From positions 1 through 64,000 of the forward strand of contig JAISRZ010000069.1 of assembly GCA_031273455.1 (NCBI GenBank): a stretch of 64,000 bases of DNA, written 5' to 3'. Source of the DNA: Deltaproteobacteria bacterium (GTDB lineage: Bacteria > Desulfobacterota > Desulfarculia > Adiutricales > Adiutricaceae). Shown here in pieces: positions 7,268-56,300 of this stretch. The position numbers were made by a program, and so were the translations under genes. Position 1 is the stretch's first letter. Each line of letters begins with the position of its first letter. The notes under the pieces were generated by a model that did not search any database, was not told the DNA's origin, and saw only the letters and a list, made by a program, of their open reading frames with translations.

Positions 7268-8833
7268 TTAGGTGGATATGGGCCCAGACCCTTCTGGGTT
7301 TGGGGGCTTTGGGGGGTCTTTAGGCTTATGATCTGGTTTGGCCGTGGGCGACCGCGGGGATGGGGCGGTTTTGGTTTCTAAAGGGGGAGCGAAGCCAGGC
7401 GGGCCGAGAACATAGAGCGGTATTTCCGCGGCCGCGGCTTTAAAGACCTCCCTAACCTTATCCTCGTCAATAAAGACCTTAACCCGGCTCTCATCTTTAC
7501 GCTCTAAGTGTTTGGCCAAGGATTGGGCCAGTTGGCTTCTGACCGTCCCCAAGCCCTCTTTGGCCAAACACTTGGCGAGCGAGGTCAAAGGATTTCGCCA
7601 CTTTATCTTAGTGGTGTTATTAGCCCAAATGATTTTGGCCACTAAAGCCAACTTCTCGGGCGGGTAACCTAAGACGTAGCCCAGAAAGGAGGCCCCGCTC
7701 CGACCTTGGGCTTGGCGCTGGGGGTCCACCCAACCATTCTCGTCCCAATGGATCGTTAAATGGTCCGCGACTGGGTAATCCTCGCCGCCTTTGGGCGGAA
7801 ATAAACTGGAAGCGCGCTTTATCCGCCTCTTTCCCGGGGGTTTCAGCGGGGGTTTAGGATGACCATTTAGAGCCTCGCCCTTAACCGCTAGGGTCTCTGG
7901 TGGGTCTTTAAGCGTAGGCTTAATTCCCAACCTCTTTTTCAACCAATACCCTAAAAACGAGTCATAAAAACCATACTTAAGGGATCTAAGTTGCTCCTGC
8001 CGCCCGTTTTCCACCTTCAGCCAACCGCAAAGCCGCTCAAACTTGGCGAGGTTACTCGCGACCTTTTGGAGTAGCTCGTGGGTTTCGGCCTTTAAGGCCA
8101 TTAAGATCTGGCTTAGAAAACAGTCAGCGACCTTTCTCGCGGCCTTAACCAGGCGAGCGGGGCTTAGCCTCTCGGCCCAACTTAAGGGCGGCGGCGGCTT
8201 TAAGTCTTTTAAGGGCCAACCGCCCTTTAAGGTCGTGGCCAGATTGACGTAATTATAATAAGCCAGGCGCCGGGAACAATTGTCGCGAAACGATCTTTCC
8301 GGGTACTTAAACCCCAAAGGCGCGATTTTGGCGAAGTAAGTCTCATAAATGTTAATAAATTTATGGCCTCGCCGAAACAAACCCATATAGCTTAACTGGC
8401 CAGTCTCGTTTAGAGGCAAGATGAGAGCGTGGATATGCGGGGTGACCTCATCCAAGTGGAGAACCGCGCTATAAGCCAATTTTCCAAAGGACTCAATCAG
8501 CCACTCGTAACTAGCCTCCACCCAAGGCTCTAACCTTTCCGCCAGCCACTCCCCGGGGTAAGACTCCCGGCCGGGCCGAAAATACCCCGGGCTGGCCTCC
8601 ATCACCAGACTCAGGGTTAAAACGGCGTTCCGCCGAACGCTCTGGCCACCTAATAACTCCAAGCAACGCGCCGGGCAATCCAAATTCGGCTGGCCAATTA
8701 AGTGGCGGTTAAGGCCAGAGCGCGCGGGATCGGCGTTGGGCGGAAAAACCAACCGGGCGTTATGGTTGTGTCTGTCATTTAAATCAGCCCAACTTTTGAT
8801 CTTAACCTGACTTAAATGAAACAAGTAATCCAT
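7268..8833 (-). CDS. MobV (Pre/Mob) family relaxase
   Basis: HNHNARLVFPPNADPARSGLNRHL and HLDEVTPHIHALILPL motifs. Start proposed at MDYLFHLSQVKIK (8833), preceded by GGGGGAG; the listed ORF extends upstream to 8917. Confidence 0.88.
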   Translation of the reverse strand: MDYLFHLSQVKIKSWADLNDRHNHNARLVFPPNADPARSGLNRHLIGQPNLDCPARCLELLGGQSVRRNAVLTLSLVMEASPGYFRPGRESYPGEWLAERLEPWVEASYEWLIESFGKLAYSAVLHLDEVTPHIHALILPLNETGQLSYMGLFRRGHKFINIYETYFAKIAPLGFKYPERSFRDNCSRRLAYYNYVNLATTLKGGWPLKDLKPPPPLSWAERLSPARLVKAARKVADCFLSQILMALKAETHELLQKVASNLAKFERLCGWLKVENGRQEQLRSLKYGFYDSFLGYWLKKRLGIKPTLKDPPETLAVKGEALNGHPKPPLKPPGKRRIKRASSLFPPKGGEDYPVADHLTIHWDENGWVDPQRQAQGRSGASFLGYVLGYPPEKLALVAKIIWANNTTKIKWRNPLTSLAKCLAKEGLGTVRSQLAQSLAKHLERKDESRVKVFIDEDKVREVFKAAAAEIPLYVLGPPGFAPPLETKTAPSPRSPTAKPDHKPKDPPKPPNPEGSGPIST

Positions 8834-8883: not shown

Positions 8884-10692
8884 TTAGGGCCGCGACGATA
8901 GAAGATAAGAGCGACATTTTTTAAATAAAGTCCTGACCGGGTTAGCGGAGCTTTGGCTTAAGCGATAAACCTCGTTCCAAGTTTCTGAGTTGATGGGTTG
9001 AATGGGTTTAAGGGCCGCTAACTTTAAAGGGGCTAAGCGCCTAATTAAGGCCCGGCCTCTACGGCCCTTCCGGGCGGCGATGACGGAGCTTTGGCCGTTA
9101 AGACTTTCGACCACGTTAGACAGAGGGATAAATTGGCCAATGGCCATAACGGGATTAAGAGGAAAAAGAGCCTTGAGGGACAAAGCCTCCAGGGGATGGT
9201 CGGTCAGATAGACTGGCTCCTCTGGGCCTTTTAAGGTCCAGGGCCAGTTGGTGGCTAGAGCGCTCTCTATATAGGGGAGCTTTCCGCCATTGGCCTTGGG
9301 GAACATGAAGCTAAGGCCAGAATCCTCATCGCCGTTAAAGATAATGGCCCCCAAGCTAGAGGATAAGATCCGCCGGTCTTGATGGGCCGCCTCCAGTAGG
9401 TCCGTTGGCAAACCATACTCAGAGACCAAAAATTCCCGGGCCTTCGGCCAAGTGGCCTCAGAAGTTAAAGGTAACTCAAAAGGGGTCTCTAGAGCCGCTA
9501 AAGCCGCCTCATCGGTGGTCACGGCTAAACGGGCGGCTAGACACTTAGTCACTTCCTCCCCGGAATAGGCCCCTAACAAAAAGACGCTGGCTTCGTCTAG
9601 ATCATAGCCAGATAAGGCCATAATTAAGTTTAAGGCCCCCTGGCCACTTTGACCGCTGGCTAAATCATTCCAAGAGTTAAACCTAGTCGCGACGATCCGA
9701 CCGGTCGGCGTCCTAAAATAGCGCCTAACGGTTAAAGGGGAATCAGCCGCTAAAGGCTCCCCTAGGGCGTTGACCTCAACCGCTTGATAAAGAACGCGTA
9801 AAACCTCCGCTGGCCAGATCCCCTCAAGGTCAACGTAATCGCTTTGGTAAGTCTTGGCCCTCTTCTCTAGCTTACGGACATCAACCTCTAAGGCGTAGGA
9901 CTCCGCCTTAAACCTTTCCGCCTCAACTTCTAAAGCTTTATTGCGATAAGCCCATTCCCCGAAAAGCGCGTTAGCCCTCTTATTGGTTAGCTCCAAGGTT
10001 TGGCTACAATAGGCTGGCCAGTTAGCCGCCGCCGAGCTTGCGGGTATACTAGCGGGTAAAGTCACATATTCCGCCAGCTCCTTTTCTTGAGGAATTTGGG
10101 GCTCCGTATAATCCCGCGTGGCCCGGTAATACCGGGCGATAGCCTCCTCGGTGGGTTTACCGAGCTTAGGCGGAGGGCGAAAGCCTAAAGGAGCCAGAGC
10201 CGCGCTATAACTGGCCATTAAGCGGGGCCAATAGTCCACTTGACGCGGGACGTTTAAGCGACTAACGTTCCGCCCATCTAACCAGACGTGAATCAATGGT
10301 GGGCTCGAAGAGGCCGCCTCATTTTCTGGCGGCGGACGATAGTCAACCATTAACCCTTGGGGGTTAAACATCTTTTTAAGATAGGCCAAGGTGGCCTTTA
10401 GCCACTTTTGGACGTTACTTAAGGATAGCGGGCGATCCCAGAATAAAGAGCTTTTCTGAGGGTAAAAAAAGGACTGGCTCGCCCCGAGGATTATTTGGGC
10501 CACCCGAGCTAACTCGCATATGGTTGGCCACTTTAAGATCTCGGCTCGGCGCTCTTGGTCACTCTGGGGACCAATAAGGGGGACGGCCCGGGTAAATTCC
10601 TGGTCCGCCTCTAAGGCTCTTTGGACCTCGGCTAAAGAGAAATAAACCGCGCAGACAATGGTGGGGTTATAAAGATCGATAGTGGATGGCAA
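8884..10692 (-). CDS. Degenerate MobV-like domain fused to DUF3991 and a degenerate Toprim domain
   Basis: C-terminal half reads as DUF3991/Toprim (ATWPKAREFLVSEYGL...; EEPVYLTDHPLEALSLKALFP); N-terminal half is co-linear by eye with the adjacent MobV relaxase. Confidence 0.6.
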   Translation of the reverse strand: MPSTIDLYNPTIVCAVYFSLAEVQRALEADQEFTRAVPLIGPQSDQERRAEILKWPTICELARVAQIILGASQSFFYPQKSSLFWDRPLSLSNVQKWLKATLAYLKKMFNPQGLMVDYRPPPENEAASSSPPLIHVWLDGRNVSRLNVPRQVDYWPRLMASYSAALAPLGFRPPPKLGKPTEEAIARYYRATRDYTEPQIPQEKELAEYVTLPASIPASSAAANWPAYCSQTLELTNKRANALFGEWAYRNKALEVEAERFKAESYALEVDVRKLEKRAKTYQSDYVDLEGIWPAEVLRVLYQAVEVNALGEPLAADSPLTVRRYFRTPTGRIVATRFNSWNDLASGQSGQGALNLIMALSGYDLDEASVFLLGAYSGEEVTKCLAARLAVTTDEAALAALETPFELPLTSEATWPKAREFLVSEYGLPTDLLEAAHQDRRILSSSLGAIIFNGDEDSGLSFMFPKANGGKLPYIESALATNWPWTLKGPEEPVYLTDHPLEALSLKALFPLNPVMAIGQFIPLSNVVESLNGQSSVIAARKGRRGRALIRRLAPLKLAALKPIQPINSETWNEVYRLSQSSANPVRTLFKKCRSYLLSSRP

Positions 10693-10955: not shown

Positions 10956-11037
10956 ATCCGCGGATATACCTAAAGGCGAACATAACCAATGGTATAGGGT
11001 ATAGGGTCAGCTTAATAATGGCCCTAAGGGCCATTAT
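10956..11037. promoter_or_regulatory. Cluster of palindromes and direct repeats upstream of the primase-like/MobV genes; candidate oriT/oriV or regulatory region
   Basis: ATCCGCGGAT (10956-10965); repeated gtataggg; ATAATGGCCC-TAA-GGGCCATTAT (11015-11037). Confidence 0.4.
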
Positions 11038-11958: not shown

Positions 11959-13008
11959 TTAGCTCTGAGAGCGGATTAAATCCAGATAACCCCTGGCGTC
12001 CGGATGGCCTTGGGTCGCGGCTAGAGCGAGCCATTTGGCGGCTTCTTTGAGGTCTTTAGCCACCCCAAAGCCCATCAAGAGTCGAATACCCACCTCGAAC
12101 CGGGCGGCCATGTCCCCTTCCTCGGCCTTAAGAGCCACCTTTTGAAAATCCGCGGCCAGTTCCTTTAGCTCATTTTGGTTATTGTGAAAAGTTTTAGCCG
12201 CGTTTCGCGGGTCATAATACCCATTGATCGCGGCCTTATTAAACCACTTAGCGGCTTCCTTGAAGTCTTGGGTCAGGCCCTCGCCGTTTATATAGAGAAC
12301 CCCCAGATAGTGTTGGGCTTCTGGGCTCCCATTTTCCGCCGCCAGATGGAACCATTTAATGGCCTCGTTTAGGTCTTTCGGGACCCCTTGCCCCGAGAAA
12401 AGGACACAAGCCAGAGCGTTTTGGGAGTCTGGATGGCCACTCTCCGCCCCGGAGCGCAACAGTCTAAGACCTTCAGGGATGTCTTTCACCGCGCCCTGGC
12501 CCGTAAAAAGGGCCAAGGCCCGCTTAAATCGCGCCTCCAGCTCCTCAGTCGCCGCCTGGCGCCGCTCGACCGCCGCATCTTCTTTTTTGGCTATACTGGA
12601 ACTCAAGATTTTTAGAGCCTCTTTAACCTCATCGGGGCTGAGCTCATCCAATATGTTGGCTAAAGTCACCATTTTTTGGGCAAGGCTATTAGAGTCAAAA
12701 AGCTCCGCGTTAACCGCCTCTTGAGCCGAAGGCTCACCGCGCTCCACCATCAGACGGGCCCATTTGGCGGCCTCTCCGGGGTCTTTGGCCACCCCTTGAC
12801 CTTTTTCGTAGAGGTTCTTTAAAGTGGCCATGGCCTCCAGGCTACCGCCCTCCGCGGCCAGACGAAACCACTTAAGGCCCTCGGCTTGGTCTTGGGGGGC
12901 TCCCTCGCCTAAAAAGTAGATGGTTCCGAGAATGAACTGGGCCGCGTGATCCCCCGCCTCAGCCAATAGCTTAACGGAAGGGTAACTGTCATGTAATTTT
13001 TGCCGCAC
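11959..13008 (-). CDS. Sel1-repeat protein without a signal peptide
   Basis: Repeated AxxxLGxxYxxGxGVxxDxxEAxKWFRLAAExG units. Confidence 0.92.
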   Translation of the reverse strand: MRQKLHDSYPSVKLLAEAGDHAAQFILGTIYFLGEGAPQDQAEGLKWFRLAAEGGSLEAMATLKNLYEKGQGVAKDPGEAAKWARLMVERGEPSAQEAVNAELFDSNSLAQKMVTLANILDELSPDEVKEALKILSSSIAKKEDAAVERRQAATEELEARFKRALALFTGQGAVKDIPEGLRLLRSGAESGHPDSQNALACVLFSGQGVPKDLNEAIKWFHLAAENGSPEAQHYLGVLYINGEGLTQDFKEAAKWFNKAAINGYYDPRNAAKTFHNNQNELKELAADFQKVALKAEEGDMAARFEVGIRLLMGFGVAKDLKEAAKWLALAATQGHPDARGYLDLIRSQS

Positions 13009-13065
13009 GCGATTCTCCTTATAAAACTTGAAAAATTATAACCTACTTACTATAATTAAATGCGC

Positions 13066-14046
13066 TTAACGTTTATTATTGTGAGGTTTACCGCTCATTT
13101 TTGGCTTTAGGCCTTTCAGGAACTCTATGGAGGTAGCCTCGCCTTGGGCCGCCGCTAAACTAAACCATTTGATAGCCTCATTAAGATCTTTCGGCGCGCC
13201 ATCGCCAATTAGGTACTTTTTCCCCAAAGTGACTTGGGAGGTAACGAACCCCTCATTGGCCGCTAAAATATACCATTTAAGGCCCTCCGCTGGGTCTTGC
13301 GGGACGCCATCGCCGAGACACAATATGGCCCCCAGATTGTGGCGCGAAATGACATTCCCCCCTTCCGCGGCCTTTCGATACCATTTAACGGCTTCGGCTT
13401 TGTCTGGGGGCGTTCCATCGCCGAAGAATAACCTTAGCGCGTAATTATGTTGGCAATAAATGTCCCCGCTCTCCGCTTGGCGACGCTCCGCTTCCAAATT
13501 AGCGGCGTGTCTTTCCGCGAACTCTTTGGCGCCCAGTTGGTTAAATCTAATGGCGTTATCGGCGTTGGTAAACCCTTTCTCCGCGGCTAAACGAAACCAT
13601 TTGGCCCCTTCGGTCTTGTCTGGCGGAACCCCTAAGCCATAACTGTAAATGGCCCCCAAAACGTATTGGGCTTCCGGGCTCCCTTTTTCCGCCGCGTTCA
13701 GAAACAATTGAATAGCCCCGGGGATGAATTGACCGACGCCATCGCCGTTTAAGCGCATGAGCCCGACGTAAAATTGGGCGTGGGCGTGGCCATTCTCGGA
13801 GGCCAGAGAAAACCATTTGTGAGCTTCCTCTTTATTTCGCGGGACCCCCTCCCCGTTATAAAGGGCCATACCAAGCTGACACTGGGCCTCAGTGAGCCCT
13901 TTAAGCGCGGCCCGATTAAACCATTTGACGCCTTCGGCCTGGTTTTGGGTCACGCCTTCGCCATGGAACAACATGAGACCTAACGCCAATTGGGCCTGAG
14001 GATCCCCTTTTTTAGCTTTTAAACGAGTTAGTTTGTATAAGGACAT
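13066..14046 (-). CDS. Sel1-repeat protein without a signal peptide
   Basis: Multiple Sel1 units; N-terminus MSLYKLTRLKAKKGDPQAQLALG. Confidence 0.92.
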   Translation of the reverse strand: MSLYKLTRLKAKKGDPQAQLALGLMLFHGEGVTQNQAEGVKWFNRAALKGLTEAQCQLGMALYNGEGVPRNKEEAHKWFSLASENGHAHAQFYVGLMRLNGDGVGQFIPGAIQLFLNAAEKGSPEAQYVLGAIYSYGLGVPPDKTEGAKWFRLAAEKGFTNADNAIRFNQLGAKEFAERHAANLEAERRQAESGDIYCQHNYALRLFFGDGTPPDKAEAVKWYRKAAEGGNVISRHNLGAILCLGDGVPQDPAEGLKWYILAANEGFVTSQVTLGKKYLIGDGAPKDLNEAIKWFSLAAAQGEATSIEFLKGLKPKMSGKPHNNKR

Positions 14047-14659: not shown

Positions 14660-15778
14660 GGGAGATTCTACGCGTCGATTAAGACCCTGGCTGACGATGA
14701 CAAAACCAGCTTAATTTTCGTCACTGGGGTCACCAAGTTCGTTAAGGGCTCCGTCTTCTCGGGCCTCAACAACCTCTTTGACCTGACTTTGGACCCAACA
14801 CGCAACCCCATTCGCGGTTTCACCTTAGAGGAGTTCCGGGGCTATTTTCTGGAGTATCTACCGGATATCCTTGAATACAATAAATCAGAAGGTTTTACGC
14901 CGCCTGAGGCCGACCTTGACTACCTAATTGGCGAGATCATCGGCTATTACGATGGCTACTCCTGGGACGGCGAAACCAGGGTTTTAAACCCTTATTCGCT
15001 TATTCAGGCGCTGGCGACAAAAGAGCTTAATGCCCACTGGTTTAGCTCGGGCGCGATGTCTTTCCTCATAGATTTTAAAAAAAAAGAAGATCGTCTTATT
15101 CTTTCCCCGCCCCCCCCCCAGATGAGCGAAACGTCCCTCGAAGCGGTTGACTTAAAAAATCTTAAGCTTACGCCCCTCCTCTTCCAAACTGGCTATCTAA
15201 CAATCGACCAACGGTTAAGCGCGGACTCTTACCTCTTAAGGCGCCCCAACCAGGAGGTCAGCCAGGCCCTTGAGCAAAACCTTCTCGACTATTTACTTGG
15301 TCAGGCGGAAGTTAACGTCACCCTTTTAAGGGAGCGGATCGTAAGGGCTTTGGAGATCTATGACTCGACCTCTTTAGCCGCGTCTTTCCGGGATATTCTT
15401 TGGTGGAACTCCCACTCTGAGCTTAAGGCCAGCGAAGAGCTATACCCCGGGCTTATTTTCTCGGTCTTAAAAGCCTTAAGGTTCTCGGTCGCCACCCAGT
15501 CAGTCACGGTCGAAGAAGTCTTCGATATCCTCCTCACCCTTGGCCAAAGGGTGGCCTTCGTTTTCGAGTTTAAGCGTAGCGCTTTGACCCCCACTTTGGG
15601 CCAAAGCCAAGAGGTCGCGAAGAAGATAAAGGAAAAGCGTCAGGAAACCATTATAGAAGCGAAAAACCAGATCCAGTTCCGGGACTATGACGCGAAATAC
15701 GGCGCCGAGTATGGGGTCGTTAAGAAAGTGGCCGTGGCTTTCGTGGGGAAGACCCAGAGAGGTCGCGGTGGAGATTGA
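14660..15778 (+). pseudogene. 5'-truncated AAA-ATPase-like / PDDEXK_9-type protein
   Basis: Frame of ORF 14789 continues upstream as FYASIKTLADDDKTSLIFVTGVTKFVKGSVFSGLNNLFDLTLDPTRNP; the P-loop N-terminal part is absent; C-terminal FVFEFK motif present. Confidence 0.75.
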
Positions 15779-42205: not shown

Positions 42206-44776
42206 GTGTATTTACAGTCAGAAAATAGTAATTCATATTTTGCTAGACTTATATCAATTATTATAATATGTAATATTGTAGTTATATCTATATATCTGCC
42301 AAGATTTTTTACATTTGTTGATTTAAAAATAGTTGTAACCGCAATTTTATCAATCTTATTGATTAGCTATGTTGATATTAAAATTCTGTTATTAGCGGAT
42401 AAAATCAGCCAGAAAAATGGAGACTCCCTTTATTATCGGGCTGGCAATTTAGGCGTTCTGTCTTCAATAGTTATTATTTTTTATCTACAAGCGCCTATAT
42501 TTATTACTGAATTTAAATTTAACGAAATTGTAAAATTAATTGCTTTATATATTTTTAGCATAATATATATTTTTATTATAATATTATTTTTAAAAAATAG
42601 AAAATATATTCCGCTATATATTAGTAACGCCTTAAATATTATTAATATTTTTTCATGCGTAATCCATGACAATATAATATTATTTTACCTTTTAAATACC
42701 GTATCAATTATTACTTGCGTTGTTTACAGAGAATATAAACAATCAGTTTTATTTTTAATAATAATAAATATTTGTATTTTAAGTTTATATTTTCTTTCAA
42801 TAATAACATTTAATAATGAAATCTTTTTCGTTAAATACGGAATATTTAACTATATCGCGATTATCATTCTGACGCTGGCCAAATTCCTAGCGGACAAGAA
42901 GAATCGGGTGGAACTGGCGGAAGCCACCCTTAACGCTTTAATGAGCTCCACCCCCAACTTAATCGTTATCGTGGATGAGCTCAACCGGATAACTCATATC
43001 AGTAAACCCATGGCGGATTTAGCCCATATCGAGCGACATGAGATGAGTATTGGGCGGCCCATTATCGACTTATTCCGAGAAATGGAGATGAAGCTCATGA
43101 TTAGCGACATCATCTCCTCTTCGGTCGCCTTTAACGACATCCGCCTATTGAACCTAGGGGGCGGCGCCCCTAGGCACTTTAAAATCATTTCCGAAAGGTT
43201 AAAGGGCGCGACTAAAGGCCGGTTTATCGATTTAAATAACGTTAGCCAGATAATGGAAGCCAAACTGGAGGCGGAAAAATCCAATCAAGCCAAAAGTATT
43301 TTCTTGGCCCGGATGTCCCACGAGATCCGGACGCCCATGAATTCCATATTAGGCATGACCGATTTGATTTTAAGAACGGACTTAGCCCCTAAAGTTAGGG
43401 AAAACGCCCTCGTGGTCAAACAGGCTGGTTTAAATTTATTGTCCCTTATAAACGATATTTTGGATATCTCAAAAATAGAATCAGGGAAATTTGAAGTTAT
43501 CGAAGAAAATTATGAGTTTATCCCGTTTTTAAAGGATATAATTGATGTAATAAACGTTAAAGTAGCTGAGAAACATCTTGTTTTAAATACATACATAAAT
43601 AATATGATTCCCAGCGTTTTAAAAGGAAGTCCGGTTCACATAAGACAAATAACCATAAATTTACTTAGTAACGCCATAAAATACACACATAAAGGTTATA
43701 TTAACCTATATATTGACTACGTTAAAATAAACAAAGATTTAATAAATTTACGAATTAATGTTACAGACACTGGAATTGGCATTTCCAAAGAAGATTTAAA
43801 AAATATATTTACGGAATTCACTCAATTCGATCAACAGGCCAATAGGGGGATAGAAGGCACGGGCTTAGGATTATCCATTGTGAAGAATTTGACCCAAGCT
43901 TTAGGGGGCCTCATAACCGTAGATAGCGTTTATGGAGCCGGGAGTGATTTTAAAGTCACTATACCTCAAAAAATAGTTAATAACGCTCCAATAGCGATAT
44001 TGACAAACGAAAATTATATTAAAGTATTAATTTACGAATTAAACACTGAAGTTACTAAATCTATCACTTATATTTTAGATAATTTAAAAGTTGAATATAC
44101 GTTTATAAATACAGCGAGCAATTTATTTAACGCAATAGAAGTTAATACTTATGATTATATATTTATTAATTACAAAGCATATCAAATACTTGAGCATATA
44201 ATTAATGATAATTACTCAGCGATGAATATTATTGTCATGACAGATATTAATAGTCAAGTGAAAAATTATGACCTAATGGTTACCTTACCATTAACGCCTG
44301 ATAAAGTGGCGGATATTTTAAATAATGTCAAAACAGAGCCTATAGATGACCAGGCTATTGAATTATACAATACTTTTACCGCGCCCGAGGCGGTGATTAT
44401 GGTGGTCGATGACCTCTTTTCCAATTTAATGGTCGCCGAAGGACTCCTGGAACCTTATGAATGCGAGGTGGTTCTTTGCCAAAGCGGCTTGGAGGCCATT
44501 AAGTCGCTGGAAGAGAGAAAATTTGATCTTATCTTAATGGACCATATGATGCCCGGAATGGATGGCATAGAGGCCACCGGTCGAATCCGGGCGATGGAGG
44601 ACGCGGAGTTAAGCCAAACGCCCATCATCGCTTTAACCGCCAACGCGGTTTACGGAATGCAAGAGAAATTTATTCAAGCCGGATTTAATGATTTTTTAGC
44701 TAAACCCATTGATTTATCGAAGCTAGATATTATATTAAGGAAATGGTTAAAAAAAATTAAGTTTAGTTCAAATTAA
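42206..44776 (+). CDS. Membrane hybrid histidine kinase (multi-TM sensor, HisKA, HATPase, degenerate REC, REC; no Hpt)
   Basis: [47 protein letters not shown] start. Confidence 0.88.
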
Positions 44777-44787
44777 ACTTAATTTTT
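44756..44787 (+). terminator. AT-rich hairpin and T-run overlapping the kinase stop codon
   Basis: ATTAAGTTTA-GTTCAAAT-TAAACTTAAT-TTTT. Confidence 0.6.
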
Positions 44788-44819
44788 ATATACTATAATA
44801 ATTAAATAATAAATAAAAT

Positions 44820-45866
44820 ATGATATATAATAATAAAAAACATATGTTTATTATAAATCCAGTGTCGTTGAATAGAGAAAGCAATATTAACAATTTTATA
44901 AATATGTTAATAAGTCATTTTAAAGGTAATGAATCAAATTTATCTATCTATATTTCCAAATATCCGCGGGACGCCATTTCCGCGATCCAGAAACGCGCCG
45001 CCACCCTTCCGCCGGGGCAAGGTCTTAGAGTTTACGCGGTCGGGGGCGATGGAATCCTCTTTGATTGCTTAAACGGGGTGGTGGGTCTAAACGACGTGGA
45101 GCTGGGGGCCATTCCCTATGGTAATTCCAATGATTTTATCCGGTCTTTTGGCGAGGGGTTATTAGAGCGATTTCGCGATATTGAAAAACAAATTAATGGC
45201 GATTCCCTCCTGACCGATGTCATCTATTGTGGCAATAACTATGTGCTAAATTGCTGTTCTGTCGGGATGGAATCTTATGCTATTTTAAAATTTTTGGATA
45301 TTAAAAGTCAATATAGCAACGTTATTGAAAAATTTCCAAGGCCTATAGCCCGATTTCTTTATAATTTAGGTTTCTTTTTAAGCGGTATATTATCTATTAA
45401 AAACAAAACTATTATTAATCAATATTATCAAATAACAATTGATAACCATGATTTGAGCGGTCAATACGGGATGATCAACATCGCCAATGGGTCTTGCTAT
45501 GGCGGGGATAAATGCTCCACCCCTTTCGCCGCCCCTAACGATGGCTATTTAGACATTGTATTGTTTAAAAGCACTGATATCTTTGAGTTTATTAGTAAAG
45601 GCTTAGATTATCTATATGGTAAATTTTTTAAATATCCTGAATTAATTTCATATTACCGGTTTAAAGAGGCGACGGTTAGATCTGAACTACCGTTAGTACT
45701 ACAGCTTGATGGCGAAGTTTTTATTGACACTAATATTTCAGTTAAAATTATTCCCCAAGCTATTAAATTTATTACGGTTAATGGTTATCAATTCAAAAAA
45801 AGGATTGTCGCCCATTATGATGAAAATCGTATAAAAACTGTCAATCAGGAATTTATTGGAAAATAA
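44820..45866 (+). CDS. Diacylglycerol-kinase-family lipid kinase
   Basis: YAVGGDGILFDCLNGV, GAIPYGNSNDFIRSFG, VLQLDGEVF. Confidence 0.87.
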   Translation: MIYNNKKHMFIINPVSLNRESNINNFINMLISHFKGNESNLSIYISKYPRDAISAIQKRAATLPPGQGLRVYAVGGDGILFDCLNGVVGLNDVELGAIPYGNSNDFIRSFGEGLLERFRDIEKQINGDSLLTDVIYCGNNYVLNCCSVGMESYAILKFLDIKSQYSNVIEKFPRPIARFLYNLGFFLSGILSIKNKTIINQYYQITIDNHDLSGQYGMINIANGSCYGGDKCSTPFAAPNDGYLDIVLFKSTDIFEFISKGLDYLYGKFFKYPELISYYRFKEATVRSELPLVLQLDGEVFIDTNISVKIIPQAIKFITVNGYQFKKRIVAHYDENRIKTVNQEFIGK

Positions 45867-45885
45867 TAATTAATTATAACTAACT

Positions 45886-46500
45886 ATGGAAAACACAACT
45901 ACCATTCACGAGGCTAGCTGGCTAAATATAGCCGAAGGCGTCAAAAGAGTCGGCGGCTCCCAAAAGCGGTATCTGTTGGTTTTAGCGGCTTTCCTCAAAG
46001 ATTTGGATTCCAGTTGGCCAATCTCCGCCGCGGAGCTTGATCTAGCGTCTTTACCTAATTGGACCACCATGGCTCACGGCCTTAAGACCGCCTTAAGGAA
46101 TATCGGCTGCGATAGTTTAGCCAACGAGGCTCTGGCCTTAGAGGAGTTCGGTCGCGCGGGCGATTTGGCCAATTTTAAGGGCCAGCTCCCTTTGTTTCGG
46201 AAAAACTTGGCTGACCTAAAGACCCAAGTCCAAACGCTGACTAAAAACGCCGCGGCTGATGCGGCCCTTGGGGCCCAAGAAGTCGATCCCATGGCCGTTA
46301 AGGCCCTTAACCGCTTAAAGGCGGGGCTATTAAGCAAAAGTCTCGACGATATTGACGCGGCTTTAGCGGCGCTTCAGGACCTTTCTCTGCCTTTAAGCGC
46401 CCGAAAGTCTATCAACGATATCGCCGATTACGTTTTAACGGCTGATTTTTCCTCAGCCGAAAGAATCGCTTGCGACCTATTGAAGGGGTCTATAAAGTGA
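45886..46500 (+). CDS. Stand-alone Hpt domain protein
   Basis: GVKRVGGSQKRYLLVLAAFLKDL...MAHGLKTALRNIG with conserved His; same C-terminal module as the hybrid kinases. Confidence 0.82.
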   Translation: MENTTTIHEASWLNIAEGVKRVGGSQKRYLLVLAAFLKDLDSSWPISAAELDLASLPNWTTMAHGLKTALRNIGCDSLANEALALEEFGRAGDLANFKGQLPLFRKNLADLKTQVQTLTKNAAADAALGAQEVDPMAVKALNRLKAGLLSKSLDDIDAALAALQDLSLPLSARKSINDIADYVLTADFSSAERIACDLLKGSIK

Positions 46501-46714
46501 TAAAGGATCTCCCCAACTTTAGACCGTTGTAGCGTCTCGCGCTCAGGTTAGCGATAAGGTCTAGCCAATTTTGGCCAGAATCTTATAGCCAACATAATTG
46601 AGTAGCGCGCCTTGGCGAAACGTTAGCTACTAGGCGATGCGTAATAACTACCCCGTTTGTGGAACAGAAAACTTTAGTAAAAAATTGAGCGAAGGATAAA
46701 CCCTAGGGACTTTT

Positions 46715-49291
46715 ATGGCGCGCCCAAGACAAAATGATATCGTTTACTTCTCCGGTCGGCTTAAAGCGAGGCTGAAAGAAGCCCTTTCCGCTCGGACCGC
46801 GCTTATTGAGGCCCCTAGCGGCTATGGCAAAACGACCGCCGCGCAAATTTATATGCGAGAGAGATTACCGGAAGGCGCGATCTGGACGCGCCATGTGGCC
46901 TCGGAAGAATCCCCCCGAGCGGCTTGGCGGCGTTTTTGTCAGTCTCTGCAAACCATTGACGCGACCAATGGGGAAAAGCTATTGACCTTGGGCCCGCCCG
47001 ATGAGGATAGCGCCGGCGACGCGGCCGCGCTTTTGCGGGGGCTGCGCTCAACTGAGCCCGCTTGGTTAGCCATAGACGATTTTCACCATTTGGCCCCCAT
47101 CGCCCCGATGTCCGTTTGGAAAGCCCTTTTAGAGCGTGACTTTCCTTTTCCGCGGGTGATAATCGTCACCCGTCCCTTAAAGAAAAGCGTCATGCCTTAT
47201 GAGAAGGCGGGTTATGTCCGCCTAACCGTGGGCGACTTAAGGTTAACCAAAGAAGAGTCCCTAGAGTATTTCACCAAGATCGGGCTCAGCCTTAATCATC
47301 ATGAGTTGGATGAGCTCCACCGCCTGGCTGGCGGGTGGATAATCGCCCTATCCCTCTACTCGCGCCACTGGCGCGAAAAGGGGAACCTCGCGCCCTACAA
47401 TGGCCGAGGGCCCAAAGGAGGGTCACCAGTCGGCTCCTCGATATCCGCCTTAGAGGGTCTATTAAGGGAAATTGTCTGGGATGATCTCGACGAGGCGGGC
47501 CGGGATTTTTTGATCCGCCTTTCGCCGTTTGAGGCTTTTTCTTTAAAACAGGCCTCATTTATCCTGGGCGGCGCGACCCCGCCCCAGAACGTTTTGGAGA
47601 CCTTAACCGGTAGCGCTTTATCCCGTTATGATCCCACCTCGGGCCTCTACTACCCGCACAGCGCTCTACTCGAGTTTGTGCGAGCCATCTTTGGTGGGCT
47701 ACCGGAAAGCGCCCGCCGCCAGATCCTGCGCGTCGCCGGGGATTGGAGCGCTGGCCAGAAAGAAAGGGAAGCGGCGGCCGCCTTTTATTACCGGTCAAGG
47801 GATTTTGAGAAATTGATGTCCTTGGATTTTTATGGCGCGGATGATAACCGCTGGTTGGATATGCCTGGTCTGGACTATCCCGAAGCCTTAAAGGATATCG
47901 CCGCCAATTGCGATAAGTCCATGAAAGCGCGCCATCCTTTAGCGGCCATCCGCTTGGCCTTTGAGTTGTTTGGCCACGGTTTAGGTCAGGAGTTCGCCGC
48001 CTTAAAGAATGAAATGAGCGAGATCGTGGAAAATTCGCTTTCTTTGGATGTTTCTGAGGAGGAGAGAAATTACCTGCGCGGGGAACTCCTTCTTTTAGAA
48101 TCGTTCACCCGGTTTAACAACATCTCGGAAATGGGCGGGCTCATGCGCCGCTCCGCCGAGCTGACTGGTTATAAAACCGTTTTGGTGACTTCGGACAACT
48201 CTTGGACTTTTTCGTGCCCCTCGGTTCTTTTAATTTTTCATAGCGTCACCGGGCGGCTCAATGGCGAACTGGAGGATATGCGGACCTATTGCCCGTATTA
48301 CACCGCCATGAGTAACGGGCATGGGGCCGGCGGCCCCGAGCTAATGGAGGCTGAGGCTCATTTTTACCGCGGCGATTTGGAGTTAGCCGGGATTCACTGT
48401 CGGAAAGCCCGTCATGAGGCCGCCGCCCGCGGTCAAGCCAGCGTTTTAATTGGCTCCGCCCTGCTAGCTGGGCGGTTAGCCATCATAACGGGCGATAGCT
48501 TAGCTTTGACCGCCTCCTTAGATGACTTAAACCTTTTAAACTCGGTCTTTCCCGTCAACTCCAACCGGTATGAGGTGGATTTGGCTCAAAGCTATCTTTT
48601 AGGCCTATTGGGCCGACCTGAGTCCATGATCGCTTGGTTAAGGGAAGCCACGCCTGGGTCATTCACCAAACGCATCTTTATCCAGGCCGCGCCCTTCGCT
48701 GATCTCTGTCGAGCCACTTACCTCAATTTAAAAGGCGAGTCCGAGACCCTCTTGGGCGAGAGCGGGGCCGTTATTAGCTTAGCTGAGGCTCTCCGTTATC
48801 CCCTGGCCCAAATTCACGCCCTAGTCCATATCGCCGCGGCCTGGCATAAAATCGGTCAACGTCAAAAAGCCTTGGAGGCCTTGCGCGAGGCTTTGGATTT
48901 GGCCACCCCGGATTTACTGGTTTTACCCTTTGTGGAAAACCACCGCTTAATTAGCCCCTTACTGGAAGAGGTCTTTCACCGGGCTCCCACCAATTTCTCC
49001 AATTTAATTAAATCCTTGGCCGCGCGGTGGACCATGGGAGCCCAGAAGATCGCCTCGCGACTTTTCTCGTCCATCGAGTATTTAGGCCTATCCGCCAGAG
49101 AGCTGGAGGTGGCTAGTTTAGCCATTGAAGGGCTCATCATCGCGGAAATCTCCTCCAAGCTCCATATCAGCCAAAACACGGTCAAAACTCACTTAAAAAC
49201 CATCTACCGGAAGACCGGAGTCTCTTCCAGGCGCGGTTTAAAAAATAAATTGGGGGCCCTAAACCGACCAGTCGCCCTGGCCGTGAGCTAA
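46715..49291 (+). CDS. LuxR-family regulator with MalT-like ATPase (LAL type)
   Basis: N-terminal APSGYGKTTAAQIYM P-loop; C-terminal LSARELEVASLAIEGLIIAEISSKLHISQNTVKTHLKTIYRKTGVSSR. Confidence 0.92.
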   Translation: MARPRQNDIVYFSGRLKARLKEALSARTALIEAPSGYGKTTAAQIYMRERLPEGAIWTRHVASEESPRAAWRRFCQSLQTIDATNGEKLLTLGPPDEDSAGDAAALLRGLRSTEPAWLAIDDFHHLAPIAPMSVWKALLERDFPFPRVIIVTRPLKKSVMPYEKAGYVRLTVGDLRLTKEESLEYFTKIGLSLNHHELDELHRLAGGWIIALSLYSRHWREKGNLAPYNGRGPKGGSPVGSSISALEGLLREIVWDDLDEAGRDFLIRLSPFEAFSLKQASFILGGATPPQNVLETLTGSALSRYDPTSGLYYPHSALLEFVRAIFGGLPESARRQILRVAGDWSAGQKEREAAAAFYYRSRDFEKLMSLDFYGADDNRWLDMPGLDYPEALKDIAANCDKSMKARHPLAAIRLAFELFGHGLGQEFAALKNEMSEIVENSLSLDVSEEERNYLRGELLLLESFTRFNNISEMGGLMRRSAELTGYKTVLVTSDNSWTFSCPSVLLIFHSVTGRLNGELEDMRTYCPYYTAMSNGHGAGGPELMEAEAHFYRGDLELAGIHCRKARHEAAARGQASVLIGSALLAGRLAIITGDSLALTASLDDLNLLNSVFPVNSNRYEVDLAQSYLLGLLGRPESMIAWLREATPGSFTKRIFIQAAPFADLCRATYLNLKGESETLLGESGAVISLAEALRYPLAQIHALVHIAAAWHKIGQRQKALEALREALDLATPDLLVLPFVENHRLISPLLEEVFHRAPTNFSNLIKSLAARWTMGAQKIASRLFSSIEYLGLSARELEVASLAIEGLIIAEISSKLHISQNTVKTHLKTIYRKTGVSSRRGLKNKLGALNRPVALAVS

Positions 49292-49406
49292 ATAACGATC
49301 TAAGCGCTAAGCGCTTATTAAAGATATTGGATAAAACTATATTAATTTATATATTAAGTAATGTATTAACCACAGCGTAAAGTTAATGATTTAAAGAAGG
49401 TCAAGC

Positions 49407-50477
49407 ATGGCCCAGGATAATAAACGTCAGTTAATCATGCTCGTGGATGATAGCCGGACCAACCTTCTGACGGGCAAAACGGCCCTTTCGGAAGACTACA
49501 CCGTCATGACCATCCCCTCGGGGGCCAAAATGTTTGAGGCTTTGGAATGGCGGAAACCGGATCTGATCCTTCTGGACGTTGATATGCCGGAAATGAACGG
49601 GTTTGAGGCCATTAAAATCTTGAAAAGCCGCCAAGAGACCGAGGATATCCCGGTCATTTTCCTAACCGCCTTGACCGAGGCTGACAATGAGCTGGAGGGA
49701 TTGCAACTAGGGGCGGTCGATTATGTGACCAAGCCATTTTCGCGGTCGCTTCTAAAACAAAGAATAACGCTCCATCTCATGCTCAAGGACCAGAAGCTAA
49801 AACTTCAGGAATTTAACGATAATTTACAGGATATGGTCAAGGAAAAGACCAAAACTATAGTTAAATTAAAGAATAAAATTATCACCGCGATGGCGGAAAT
49901 GGTGGAGGGTCGGGATGGTATAACCGGCAATCATATAGAAAACACTCAATATTATTTAAAAATAATGTTAACCGCGGTCAAAGCGGACGCGCGATTCGCC
50001 GCGGACGCGCTGGATTGGGATATTGAGGCCCTGACCCAATCATCGCAACTTCATGACGTGGGTAAGATTTCCATTAGGGACACAATTTTAAAAAAACCTG
50101 GGAAATTGACCGACGAGGAATTTCTGGAAATGAAAGAGCATGTCTCCATAGGCGTTGGTTTTATCGAAAAAATGGATGATGGGGATGAAGATAACTATTT
50201 TTTAATGTACGCCAAAATATTCGCCGCCTACCACCATGAGAAATGGGATGGCTCAGGTTATCCCCAAGGTTTAGCCGGCGAAAATATTCCTCTTTTAGGC
50301 CGAGTCATGGCCATCGCCGATGTCTACGACGCTCTGACCTCGGTTAGGCCATATAAGAAACGCTTTAGCCACGAGGACGCGGTCAAAATTATCGTTGAAG
50401 GTCAAGGGAGCCATTTTGACCCCCGCCTAGTGGAACTGTTCACGCGGGTCGCGGACTCATTTAAAGATAATTTATAA
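49407..50477 (+). CDS. Response regulator with HD-GYP c-di-GMP phosphodiesterase domain
   Basis: REC (LVDDSRTN...LLDVDMPEMNG) plus HDVGKIS...HHEKWDGSGYPQGL. Confidence 0.95.
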   Translation: MAQDNKRQLIMLVDDSRTNLLTGKTALSEDYTVMTIPSGAKMFEALEWRKPDLILLDVDMPEMNGFEAIKILKSRQETEDIPVIFLTALTEADNELEGLQLGAVDYVTKPFSRSLLKQRITLHLMLKDQKLKLQEFNDNLQDMVKEKTKTIVKLKNKIITAMAEMVEGRDGITGNHIENTQYYLKIMLTAVKADARFAADALDWDIEALTQSSQLHDVGKISIRDTILKKPGKLTDEEFLEMKEHVSIGVGFIEKMDDGDEDNYFLMYAKIFAAYHHEKWDGSGYPQGLAGENIPLLGRVMAIADVYDALTSVRPYKKRFSHEDAVKIIVEGQGSHFDPRLVELFTRVADSFKDNL

Positions 50478-50630
50478 CCAATAAGGCGATAGATCAATTT
50501 CTTAAACCGGGTCAGGTCGATATGGCCGATCCGCTGGAAGTCAAAAAAGGAGCCGCGGCTATAAATTTTACCCCAAACCCTAAAACGATAAAAATGACCT
50601 AATAGAAGCGAAAAAGGGACAATTAGATTT

Positions 50631-53201
50631 ATGTATAAGTTTTCCAATGATAGAAAAAAATTGTTAACTAAAATTAATATTATTGCAATATTTTTTCTAT
50701 TATCTATAGCTACAATACTATTGCTTACTATATATACGCGCAATCTACTAAATACCTACATGACTGCGGAGTCCCATTACATAATAGAACGATTGAAAGC
50801 GGTTAGTTTAAGCGCCTCCACCTTTGTTAACGCTGATGAGCTGGAAAAATTTCAAACTATTGAAGATATGAAACTTGAGTCATATCAAGATATAAAGAAA
50901 AAATTATATTATTTTTCAAAACAAGTAGATGTATTTTATGTATATTATATGCGAATAATTGATGGAAAAATACAATATATAATAGACAATGATTACGATG
51001 AAAAAACCCGAGTTGGCCTGGACACCCCCTTAACCGACATCGCGATTGAAGAGGGCGCCGATGACGCTTATCTAACGGGTGAAGTGAATTGCGAGGACAT
51101 CGGCTCGTACACCGAGGGTTGGGAAGGGTTAATGTCGGCTTACGCCCCAGTTTTCAACTCCCAAGGAAAAATCGTCGGGGTCGTGGGCGTGGACATCAAG
51201 GACGCGGAAATAATGGACTCCCGCCTAAAAATGTCCAGGCTTACGGGAATAGAAATATTTTCGGTCATTTTGGTTATGGTCAGTGGAACGATTTGCCTTA
51301 TGGGCTTTAAGAACGCCGCTAAAAGAGCGGAGGCCTCCAACCAGAGCAAGTCCACTTTTTTAGCCATGATCAGCCATGAGATTAGAACGCCCATGAACGC
51401 GATTATTGGGCTAAGCGAACTGACGCAACGGGAATATGGCAAGCCCAAAGGGTTGGAGTATATCAGCGGCATAAAAAACGCTGGCGCGGGTTTGCTGGCT
51501 ATTATCAACGATATCCTAGATTTTTCCAAGTTTGAGTCGGGCAACCTGACGATAAACATAGCTCCTTATAATATATCTTCATTGTTAAATGACGTTTTAA
51601 CAGTTATTAAAGTTAAAATGTCCGAAAAATCGCTGAAATTAATTTTAGATATATCGCCTAAGATTCCGAGCGTCCTTTTTGGCGACGCCGGACGCATAAA
51701 ACAAATACTCCTCAATCTATTGGGCAACTCCGTCAAATACACGGAAAATGGTTTTATCAAATTTTCCGCGTCTTGTGAGCCTTTAAGCGTGGTTAGCTTG
51801 CGTCTGACTTTTGTGGTGGAGGACAGCGGAATCGGCATTAAACCAGAAGACATGCCAAAATTGTTTAGAGAATTTATTAGACTGGACGTTAAACGGAATA
51901 TCAAAGTGGAAGGCACTGGCTTAGGGCTCCCGATAGCCAATTTTCTTTGCGAAGCCATGGATGGCGGCATAAAGGTGACTAGCGAATACGGCGCGGGCTC
52001 CACCTTTACCGCGACAATTAATCAAACCTTGGAAGACTGGACCTCCATTGGCGAATTTTCTGAGGTCTTAGTTAAAAACTTAGAGCCGCAATCCATCAGC
52101 TTCACCGCTCCCGAGGCTAACGCGCTATTGGTGGATGATCTGCCCAGTAATCTTTTGGTGGCCGAAGGTTTGCTCATTCCCTATGGCATGCGAGTCTTTA
52201 CCTGCTTAAATGGGCTAGAGGCCTTGGAGCTTATTAAGTCGCGGCCTTTTGACATTGTCCTTATGGATCACATGATGCCGGAGATGGATGGCCTTGAGGC
52301 CACCAGGGAGATCAGGTCCTTAACCGGCAAAAGGTTTCAATCCATGCCCATTATCGCTTTAACCGCCAACGCGGTGGCTGGCATGAAGGAAATGTATTTA
52401 GAGAACGGCTTCAATGATTTTCTCTCCAAACCTATAGAAGTATCAAAATTAGACGCGATCTTAAAAAAATGGATCCCTGACAATAAACGTCAGTCTCAAG
52501 AGCATTTAAAGTTTAATAAAGATAATGACTCAATCTCTGAAACAGCTTTAATACCTGAAATTGATGGTTTAAACGCTAATATTGGTATTGAAAGGATTGG
52601 TGGATCGAGTAAACGTTACTTTGAATTGCTTAAAATGTTTACCAGCGATGTCCAGGCTGGCTGGGGCCATTTGGCCAAAAAGCCTGACAAATATTCCATA
52701 ATTCCATTCACTACATTTGTTCACTCTATGAAAAGCGCTTTAAATAATATTGGTTCAATAAATCTAGCGAAAGACGCTGAAAACTTAGAAATAGCTGGTC
52801 GCGATGTTGATTTTAAACTAATTCATAGTTTATTATGTCCTTTTCGAGATAAACTATCGATATTAACGGAGCGAATCAAAGACTTTTTAGAGAGCCATCA
52901 AGCCGCTGATGGGGGCGGCGCGGCTGGGGGGAGCGGCGGCTTAGGGCCAGAGCTACAAACCGCTCTCTCCCATCTTTTGGCGGCTTTAAAGCGAAAGGAT
53001 GTCGATACAATCGATCATATCATTATCGAGCTCCGTTCCATGACCCTGCGGTTAAAAATCAGCGATCTGGTCGCGGAAATTGACGAGCTAGTTTTAACGG
53101 CGGACTTTGAGCTAGCCTCGGAAAAACTGGCTCAGTTAATTAGCTGGGATAAAGCTGAGTCGAAAGACCATGAGGATGTGGACCGGGGCTTAAACGGTTA
53201 G
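50631..53201 (+). CDS. Hybrid histidine kinase (periplasmic sensor, HisKA, HATPase, REC, Hpt, C-terminal module)
   Basis: [52 protein letters not shown]. Confidence 0.93.
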   Translation: MYKFSNDRKKLLTKINIIAIFFLLSIATILLLTIYTRNLLNTYMTAESHYIIERLKAVSLSASTFVNADELEKFQTIEDMKLESYQDIKKKLYYFSKQVDVFYVYYMRIIDGKIQYIIDNDYDEKTRVGLDTPLTDIAIEEGADDAYLTGEVNCEDIGSYTEGWEGLMSAYAPVFNSQGKIVGVVGVDIKDAEIMDSRLKMSRLTGIEIFSVILVMVSGTICLMGFKNAAKRAEASNQSKSTFLAMISHEIRTPMNAIIGLSELTQREYGKPKGLEYISGIKNAGAGLLAIINDILDFSKFESGNLTINIAPYNISSLLNDVLTVIKVKMSEKSLKLILDISPKIPSVLFGDAGRIKQILLNLLGNSVKYTENGFIKFSASCEPLSVVSLRLTFVVEDSGIGIKPEDMPKLFREFIRLDVKRNIKVEGTGLGLPIANFLCEAMDGGIKVTSEYGAGSTFTATINQTLEDWTSIGEFSEVLVKNLEPQSISFTAPEANALLVDDLPSNLLVAEGLLIPYGMRVFTCLNGLEALELIKSRPFDIVLMDHMMPEMDGLEATREIRSLTGKRFQSMPIIALTANAVAGMKEMYLENGFNDFLSKPIEVSKLDAILKKWIPDNKRQSQEHLKFNKDNDSISETALIPEIDGLNANIGIERIGGSSKRYFELLKMFTSDVQAGWGHLAKKPDKYSIIPFTTFVHSMKSALNNIGSINLAKDAENLEIAGRDVDFKLIHSLLCPFRDKLSILTERIKDFLESHQAADGGGAAGGSGGLGPELQTALSHLLAALKRKDVDTIDHIIIELRSMTLRLKISDLVAEIDELVLTADFELASEKLAQLISWDKAESKDHEDVDRGLNG

Positions 53202-53330
53202 CCGGTTAAACCCGCGATTTATAGCGCCTTGGCCTTAAAGGAGGCTATAAAACGCGATTATCAAACATTAGCGTCGCTAGCCAGGGCGATCTAAAGGTCA
53301 GGCTTACCAGCTCTTATTTGACTAACCACT

Positions 53331-56300
53331 ATGGAAATTAATATGTTTAAGCTATTTATGGCTTTAATTTTCGCTTTAACGCCTCTAATCTTGTTTCCAA
53401 AGTTGTCCATAGGCGCCGAAGAAACCTTCGCCTACCAATCTTATCGTGATATCCCTGGCGTCACCAAAGAGGAAATAGAGGCTATCGAGCGGATTATAAA
53501 ACAAAAACCTCGTTTTATCTTGGGGGCTGAGCCCAGCGTGGAATTGTTTCGCCAGATTGACGGCTCGCTCGGCGGCTATAACGTTCTTCTGTGTAATTGG
53601 CTAAGCTCGCTTTTTGGGGCTAAGTTTACACCAGTTATATATGATTGGGATCTATTGACCGCAGGCCTCGATCGTCAGGATATTGACTTCACTGGCGATC
53701 TGACGCCCACCCCCGAGCGAGTGGCCCGATATTTTATGACCTCGCCCATGTTGGAGCGACCGATTAAATATATGCGCCTTCCAGACAGCCTTAGTCTAGC
53801 GGAAATCGCCAAATCCCGGCCCCCCCGTTACGGGTTTTTAGCTAAGACCTCAACATTTGATCAAGTCAGCGCCTCTTTAGAGAAATCTTACGCGGTTATT
53901 ATGGTCGATAATCATAAGGAGGCCTACCAAAAGCTTTTAAATGGCGATATTGACGCCTTTGTCGATGAGGCGCCTTATGAGGCCGCTTTCGACTCCTTTG
54001 GCGATATCGTGACCGAAGATATGTTGCCCATGGTCTTCGGCCCAGTCTCTTTGGCCACCGCTAACCCCGAATTCGAGCCCATCATTAAGGTCGTCCAGAA
54101 AGCTTTGGATAACGGGGGCGTGGAATACTTAACCATATTGCTTAAAAGGGGCCAGGCGGAATATCGAAGCCATAAATTTTTTTCGTGGCTGACCCCGGAG
54201 GAACGTCAGTACGTTTTTGAGCACAGCGCCTCTGGACAGAATAAGCCTATCCCAGTGGGCCTGGAGTACGATAATTACCCCATCGCTTTTTATAATGATC
54301 GGGAAAAGGCTTGGCAAGGTTGCGCTTGGGATGTTTTAGAGGAGATTAGAGCCATTAGCGGACTCAATTTCGCCAACGCGTTTCCCGAGCCAGTTATCTT
54401 TCCAGAAATGGTGCGGAAGCTGGAAAGCGGCGAAATAGCCGTCATTTCCGAGCTTATTAAGACCACGGAAAGGGAAGGCCGATTTATTTGGCCAGATAAA
54501 CCCTTCACCACTGACAACTACGCTCTCGTGTCCCTCATTGATTTTCCTAACATTGAGCTGTCCGACGTGCGCCGATACACCATTGGCTTATCCGAGGGCA
54601 CCGCCTATACGGAGCTATTTTGGACCTTATTTCCGCGTCATACGCGGACTAAAGAATATATTGACGTGCTTTTGCCGCTGTACGCTTTGGAGCGCGGCGA
54701 AGTGGATCTGGTCATGAGCACCCAAAACCAACTCCTTAGCATGACCAATTTTTTGGAAAAGCCATATTTTAAAATAAATGTATTTTTAAATAGAACATAC
54801 GAATCATATTTCGGCATTAATAAATCTGAAACAATTCTGCGCTCCATAATCAGTAAAGGCATGAAGCTGATTAACGTCAATAACATCGCTGAGCAATGGA
54901 AACGCCGCGTGTTTGACTATAACAGCGCCGTGGCCCGGGAACGGACGCCTTTTTTGGTCGCCGGGATCTTTCTTTTCCTTTGCGTCATTGTCCTTCTTTT
55001 GATCATGTACTTTAAAGGTAAATCCACGGAAAAATATCTGGAGTCTTTAGTTGAGACCCGGACGAGAGAGCTTAAACGACAAACAGAGGTCGCTAATCTG
55101 GCCGCCAAGGCTAAAACTGAGTTTTTAGCCCGCACCAGCCATGAGATCCGGACCCCCATGAACGCCATCTTAGGCTTAAGCGAACTGGCCCAAAGGGAGT
55201 ATGGCCAGCCGAAAGCTTTGGAGTATATTATTGGCATCAAAAACGCCGGTAAAATTCTTCTGTCCATCATCAACGATATCTTGGATTTTTCCAAAATCGA
55301 GTCGGGCGGCCTTTTGATCCATCCCGAGTCCTATCAGACCGCCTCCCTTTTAAACGACGCTTTGGCGGTCATTCGCGTCAGGATGACGGAAACCGCCCTC
55401 AACCTTTTTCTGACCATCTCCCCGAACATCCCCGCTAACCTCATTGGCGACTCGGTCCGGATCAAACAGATACTATTGAACCTTTTGAGTAACGCCGTTA
55501 AATACACTAACCAAGGCTTCATTAAGTTCACCGCCAAAGGGGAACCCATTGACCCCAAGGCCATCCGGCTAACCTTTGTGGTTGAGGACTCTGGCGTTGG
55601 CGTTAAACCCGAGGATTTAGCCAAACTCTTTGTGGAGTTCACGCGGGTGGACGATAGTAACTCTTCGCGTATTGAGGGCACTGGCTTAGGGTTAGTCATA
55701 GCTCGGAGCCTATGCCGGGCCATGGGCGGCGATATCACGGTCGAAAGCCAATACGGTCGCGGCTCCACCTTTACGGCCACCTTGATTCAAAACGTTGACG
55801 ATTGGGCCCCCATGGGGGATTTATCGACCATAACCGAGACGCGCGCCGAGACCCAGATCGTCACCTTCACCGCCCCCGAAGCGGAGCTTTTGATTGTGGA
55901 TGACTTTCCCAGTAACCTTTTGGTGGCCGAAGGTCTGCTCGTCCCTTACGGCGCCCGGGTTCTGACCTGCCTTAATGGCCGGGAGGCCGTGGAGCTAGTC
56001 CAACGGCGCCCCTTTGATCTGGTGTTAATGGATCACATGATGCCGGAAATGGACGGCGTGGCGGCGACTTTAGCCATTAGAGCCATGAGCGAGGAACGTT
56101 GCCAGACCATGCCCATTATCGCCTTAACGGCCAACGCCGTCTCCGGCATGAAGGAACTTTTCCTCGAAAACGGCTTTAACGACTTTATTTCTAAACCCAT
56201 TGACACGGTCAAACTGGATGAGGTCTTAAAAAGATGGATCCCCGCTTCTAAGCGGCGAAAAATCGCCCGACCAGAGCCCCAAGAACCCGCCCCCAAGGCC

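Follow-up and report, generated by a model that had tools for sequence, protein, structure and literature searches.

The window analysed here (the whole 64,000-nt stretch of contig JAISRZ010000069.1) carries on its minus strand two adjacent genes, hereafter U and D, which form a conserved pair: a live MobV relaxase encoded behind a dead sister. The product of D (7268..8833) is a MobV relaxase of 521 aa, whose HN.R..NADP and HLDEVTPHIH motifs are intact and which has no Toprim domain, and the 602-aa product of U (8884..10692) has neither the relaxase nor the Toprim catalytic residues. It is this pair which is new, the fusion of relaxase and Toprim domains being itself not new. A first-pass annotation had presented U as a paralogue of the adjacent MobV relaxase, retained in frame after loss of both active sites, and as a fusion of a kind not described before; the former part of this interpretation stands, the latter does not.

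The U open reading frame is real, with 602 codons on the minus strand (the first-pass annotation gave no strand). It starts with TTG, with a Shine-Dalgarno GGAG 10 nt upstream, its 3′ end lies 50 nt from the start of D (8833), and it is present as a single copy in the window's genome. Sequence searches with the U protein gave no relevant match in Pfam, NCBIfam or PDB, and nothing convincing in PHROGs or PADLOC either. D matched Pfam Mob_Pre (E 4.9e-14) and NCBIfam MobV at 79.7 bits, below the 100-bit cut-off of that model, and the profile of the D proteins of the host genus matched MobM of pMV158 (MOBV1; PDB 4lvi; E 2.3e-10). Motif III of D, HLDEVTPHIH, is located at 8429..8458 (minus). In another genome, one D of live type (L036 4333-5865, the D of G006b) carries PNIH instead of PHIH in motif III, and is losing one HUH histidine.

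We compared the relaxase-like N-domain of U (aa ~10–193; 10114..10665, minus), in which the MobV motif I block is deleted, with MobV domains by hhalign. It scored 86.5 against D-type MobV N-domains (E 1.5e-12) and 95.2 against intact single-gene fusions (E 4.2e-14), while the best score among 60 column-shuffled null profiles was 23.5. This profile comparison, on which the N-terminal homology rests rather than on a fold search, strongly argues that the U N-domain is homologous to the MobV domain by descent, not by activity. The four correspondences between U and MobV proposed by eye in the first-pass annotation fall in the same segments, in register, in the profile-profile alignment. The absence of MobV catalytic signatures, also pointed out there, was borne out in all 18 aligned upstream homologues: each lacks the HN..R/NADP block and each has lost HxDExxPHxH, with TPHIH retained in U_G006b. 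In the window's protein, PPLIHVWL (aa 131–138; 10279..10302, minus) occupies the position of the lost MobV PHxH. U did not match Pfam Mob_Pre or NCBIfam MobV even at E 10, and none of the 8 host-genus U members matched Mob_Pre.

A long helix, probably a coiled coil (aa 222–281; 9850..10029, minus; AlphaFold2 secondary structure), is followed by a DUF3991-like region (aa ~286–465; 9298..9837, minus), delimited by alignment to the intact fusion L065:7503-9308 and partly by the primase fold match, and by a Toprim-like domain (aa ~485–561; 9010..9240, minus), delimited by alignment to intact relatives and fold match. The model of this C-half (AlphaFold2 pLDDT 74) matched bacterial DnaG (2au3; Foldseek E 3.3e-4, probability 1.00) and the T7 gp4 primase (1nui; probability 1.00), and together with the alignment this upholds the DUF3991-Toprim ancestry claimed earlier. 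TDHPLEA (9184..9204, minus) occupies the Toprim motif I position, where an intact relative has TEGPIDA, and ARKGRRG (9055..9075, minus) the DxDxxG position, where it has HDKDAAG; the catalytic acids are thus changed from E to D and from DxD to RKG. The second change is a genuine loss, as previously read, since the DxD pair is gone from every U homologue aligned. The first was described as a swap of acidic residues: the site is indeed altered, but not at random, since motif I reads TD[HN][PT]xE[AG] in the host genus with T497, D498 and E502 invariant in 8 homologues. These acids are not retained in all genera (TGCPGRA in G030, for example). A second-position E in motif I is normal for DUF3991-Toprim proteins (ESSIEA in Pseudomonas), and in one Nostoc relaxase the first E of this motif is replaced by K, so that U is not alone in showing partial Toprim decay. 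The DaN- motif, a synapomorphy of mobile-element Toprim primases and DWNE in the intact relative, is TWNE in U, and its WNE is retained in the window's protein and in several relatives.

Besides the window's genome, the host genus is represented by six genomes, five of which carry one or two full-length intact U homologues (n=7, 29–34% identity). A scan of the genome collection returned the same seven, in MAGs of isolates Nc350, Im510, Gx485 and Cd354, which we take from the isolate codes to be of termite-gut origin. With a 14-member profile, which also catches relatives that are fused or have diverged (G029, some D proteins), matches were found in 28 of 37 host-family genomes and 10 of 11 genera, and in none of 27 other genomes of the class. 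Within a sample of 297 genomes of the phylum, the host-genus profile (8 members) added a single genome, G102. Its gene (L065 7503-9308) encodes 601 aa in one frame, for which Mob_Pre, DUF3991 and Toprim_2 each exceed the cut-off; its motifs are HNSR/NADP, HLDEATPHIQ, TEGPIDALSLK and HDKDAAGD. The last residue of motif III is Q in this protein, and likewise in G029. The neighbouring L065 ORFs read as tyrosine-recombinase-like, helicase-like and small DNA-binding-like, and the G102 gene apparently sits in an integrated element.

In addition, 30 plasmid records, mostly cyanobacterial, cover at least 80% of the G102 protein in one place. Together with the G102 gene, they establish the MobV-DUF3991-Toprim fusion as an existing relaxase architecture, represented in Nostoc, Calothrix and Gloeocapsa plasmids and in a 2.9-kb Paracoccus aestuarii plasmid. 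The latter (NC_019287.1) consists mostly of one such relaxase-like gene (match 715-2415), which possibly acts in replication also. The single-gene fusions share with U the domain order and a near-identical length (601–602 aa in L065 and Nostoc HK-01). In contrast, those translated (L065 and two from Nostoc) have the nickase motif III which U has lost, and the L065 Toprim is intact (TEGPIDA...HDKDAAG), whereas U has lost the Toprim site and the host-genus D the whole Toprim. The single-gene fusion represents the ancestor type of both U and D. We found in the open-access literature no description of a 'pseudo-relaxase', of a MobV relaxase with Toprim or of DUF3991 with a relaxase. The novelty seen in the first-pass annotation therefore does not lie in the fusion architecture, which already exists, but in a duplication that set two copies in tandem, one of which then lost both active sites.

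D keeps traces of the same ancestry. In the host genus it has lost the Toprim, and a vestige of DUF3991, W.D...QGQG...GY, is recognisable; in the window's D this vestige, W...QGRSGASFLGYVLGY (7664..7732, minus), is shared with the W.DL...GQGALNLIMALSGY stretch of U, to which hhalign aligns it. The D proteins of two other genera (G010, G013) have both DUF3991 and Toprim regions, the Toprim being degenerate. In a maximum-likelihood tree of 29 proteins, U (98/96), D (100/98) and the single-gene fusions (90/86) formed separate clades, consistent with one duplication; finer branching is unsure owing to several long end branches and variable composition. The distance matrices of U and D correlated with r=0.82, with 0 of 5000 permutations as high; shared host ancestry contributes to this correlation and is not corrected for by the permutations. 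These data show that a three-part ancestral relaxase (MobV HUH nickase, DUF3991 and Toprim) underwent tandem duplication in a termite-gut Desulfobacterota lineage. The downstream copy, D, retained the MobV nickase and, in the host genus, lost its Toprim with reduction of DUF3991 to a vestige; in the upstream copy, U, neither the nickase residues nor the Toprim DxD survive, but the scaffold is held by purifying selection.

Selection on U was estimated from the two G030 copies, which are 78% identical with unsaturated synonymous sites. Their dN/dS was 0.45 overall (p 9e-10), and by part 0.43 for the relaxase-like domain, 0.64 for the linker and 0.25 for the C-half. An attempt to define element ends from these two copies was ruled out, as homology continues through the upstream gene; they may therefore be strain variants of one locus, which leaves the dN/dS ratio unaffected. 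For host-genus pairs, whose synonymous sites are saturated, pN/pS was 0.50–0.67 for U and 0.59–0.60 for D. The claim that the U frame is retained under selection is supported by these values, dN/dS being below 1 in both degenerate domains.

We then examined the arrangement of the pair. The family has 19 Mob_Pre loci, and in 15 of them a U gene immediately precedes D in the same orientation; among these 15, U is cut by a contig end in three and D is split into two ORFs in G027. At one further locus (G003 C65), U accompanies a D broken into fragments. Measured in nine pairs, the gap between the two genes spans 50–275 nt. Four MobV loci have no U, namely the fused genes of G029 and G008, a canonical MobV in G006 and a G016 locus near a contig end. 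Reciprocally, U occurs without adjacent D in G017, G015 and G022, and possibly in G007 and G016 (near contig ends), which indicates that U can act without a neighbouring D. Solo U-type proteins without detected adjacent MobV are encoded at L039 8080-9777, L044 3719-5281, L050 6887-9001 and L049 8741-10924. Those of L039 and L044 (genus g2) lie near the same porin-like gene, which hints at a fixed chromosomal role.

Beyond U and D, the flanking genes generally differ between loci, save for a few homologues, for a large activase protein in the vicinity of L031 and L033, and for a block from carbonic anhydrase to DUF3786 common to G006 and G003, with the pair on its left in G006 and on its right in G003. 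These two sites are reciprocal, each being without the pair in the other genome. Unshared flanks and two reciprocal empty sites indicate that the pair behaves as a two-gene unit which changes place; U and D are mostly inherited together, at different chromosomal places. Relatives of the genes that flank the pair in the window gave no clean empty site: no flavin-oxidoreductase homologue shares a contig with the pair, and just one homologue of the 11320 gene was found. No tRNA/tmRNA integration site was consistent across loci.

The window's genome, which is 94% complete, yielded no T4SS coupling protein; one was found in 7 of 37 family genomes, within the host genus in G006 only; these being draft genomes, its absence is provisional. 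A role in conjugation is accordingly not directly supported. The DNA upstream of U contains a candidate promoter, TTGACA-16-TACATT (11078-11051, minus; weak evidence), and just downstream of it a perfect palindrome with 11-bp arms, ATAATGGCCCTTAGGGCCATTAT (11015-11037, minus). Equally good palindromes arose in 2 of 60 simulated sequences, and no palindrome, hairpin or oriT was common to the DNA upstream of other U genes, the perfect palindrome being found in the window only; it is possibly, on weak grounds, an operator or oriT.

Several other features of the window were recorded. An ORF with PDDEXK_9 (14789-15778) has relatives near the pair in L040 and L043, one of them annotated AAA-ATPase-like/PDDEXK_9, and AAA-ATPase-like remnants were seen by eye in L034 and L035; this association may only reflect high copy number. 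Two adjacent ORFs of 349 and 326 aa (11959-14046) carry tandem Sel1-type repeats, confirmed by Pfam in the first. Hybrid histidine kinases that carry response-regulator domains are clustered with an HD-domain response regulator at 42206-56933, and GC content is low (0.34–0.35) at 42–46 kb.

What, then, might U do? The simplest role for a dead sister just ahead of a live MobV without its Toprim half is that of a heteromeric partner or regulator. We lean, by a small measure, towards this view, in which U would join D in the relaxosome or regulate it, acting through binding and without catalysis. The prototype of the MOBV relaxases, MobM, is dimeric, and it represses its own gene when bound to its oriT/promoter (PMC5863519). 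By homology to it, U would replace one protomer of a D dimer or bind the DNA of D, and so would position or restrain D on its nick site. The domains are complementary, with a Toprim fold in U and the Toprim lost from host-genus D, and U would also supply in trans a primase-like DNA-binding platform which D has lost. Its action would be expected through binding, not chemistry. A bolder version, which we hold to be doubtful, is that U and D make up a chromosomal HUH mobile element which needs no protein beyond these two: a MobV-derived nickase that would move, or be mobilised, solely with its obligate, catalytically dead sister subunit and with no resident conjugation system; if true, this would be a division of labour arising from a duplicated fused relaxase-Toprim protein.

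The same binding could instead be directed against D. As a pseudo-relaxase occupying oriT or promoter, or poisoning D dimers, U might silence MobV elements; on this view, the solo U genes would be defences that were domesticated to keep out incoming copies. That U is the first gene of the pair, that intact solo copies exist in several genera (those of L039 and L044 near the same porin-like gene) and that MobM represses its own gene through oriT binding (PMC5863519) fit such an antagonist; the correlated U and D distances and their mostly joint travel do not, no convincing PADLOC family match was obtained, and solo genes may just be copies whose D was deleted. We consider this possible, if unlikely. 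Altered catalysis is a still fainter prospect: the TD[HN]PxEA acids could make up a metal site of altered shape, which would serve priming or strand handling by the primase-like C-half, in keeping with the strongest constraint being on the C-half (dN/dS 0.25), with T497, D498 and E502 invariant in the genus, with the fold match to DnaG and T7 gp4 primase and with the retained WNE. However, the metal-binding DxD pair is gone from all aligned homologues and the TD..E acids are missing in some genera, as in G030.

U could also fail to mimic a relaxase structurally if its N-domain had been re-shaped and had departed from the HUH fold. A Foldseek search of PDB with the N-domain model (pLDDT 80, pTM 0.74), run without a positive control, gave no significant match and did not return MobM; against BFVD nothing was significant, the best relaxase among viral models having TMq 0.35 and E 0.93. 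Nevertheless, the profile-profile homology to MobV is strong and collinear, and modelled strands 109–114 and 128–133 (N-domain model numbering) coincide with the HLDE and PHIH segments of D, so that we regard a re-shaped fold as improbable. Finally, broken or partial U copies (G002:C109, G010:C69, G033:C78, G021:C69) and the fragmented D of G003 C65 might suggest a slowly decaying, functionless remnant. This reading is rejected, as both degenerate domains are constrained, with dN/dS significantly below 1; the single ancient origin of the U clade and the seven full-length intact genus homologues, 29–34% identical to the window protein, equally refute U as a pseudogene and leave decay with next to no probability. 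Nor is U a remnant confined to one genome, since it recurs beside MobV genes elsewhere.

Known systems share parts of this arrangement. MobM is like D by profile, and the N-domain of D is homologous to that of U; unlike the pair, MobM is encoded by one gene, its HUH residues are live and it lacks a Toprim. We know of nothing like U which accompanies MobM. Stand-alone DUF3991-Toprim proteins of conjugative plasmids (for example, of Pseudomonas fulva pVIM-1-ZDHY316) align with the U C-half, but they have no relaxase-like domain and largely retain the acidic motifs. Polyvalent proteins with Toprim primase domains probably belong to the same Toprim-primase lineage as U, a lineage marked by the DaN- motif, of which U retains WNE. 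Catalytic activity is ascribed to the Toprim domains of these proteins (Iyer et al. 2017, PMC5512222); the U–D pair differs from them in being a degenerate two-gene derivative.

MobV genes persist and shift chromosomal position in genomes without a detected T4SS coupling protein, and how they move is a testable question. Relaxases are usually regarded as single, self-sufficient enzymes. The U–D pair is a natural experiment on the non-catalytic roles of a relaxase: dimerisation, oriT recognition, autoregulation and recruitment of priming.
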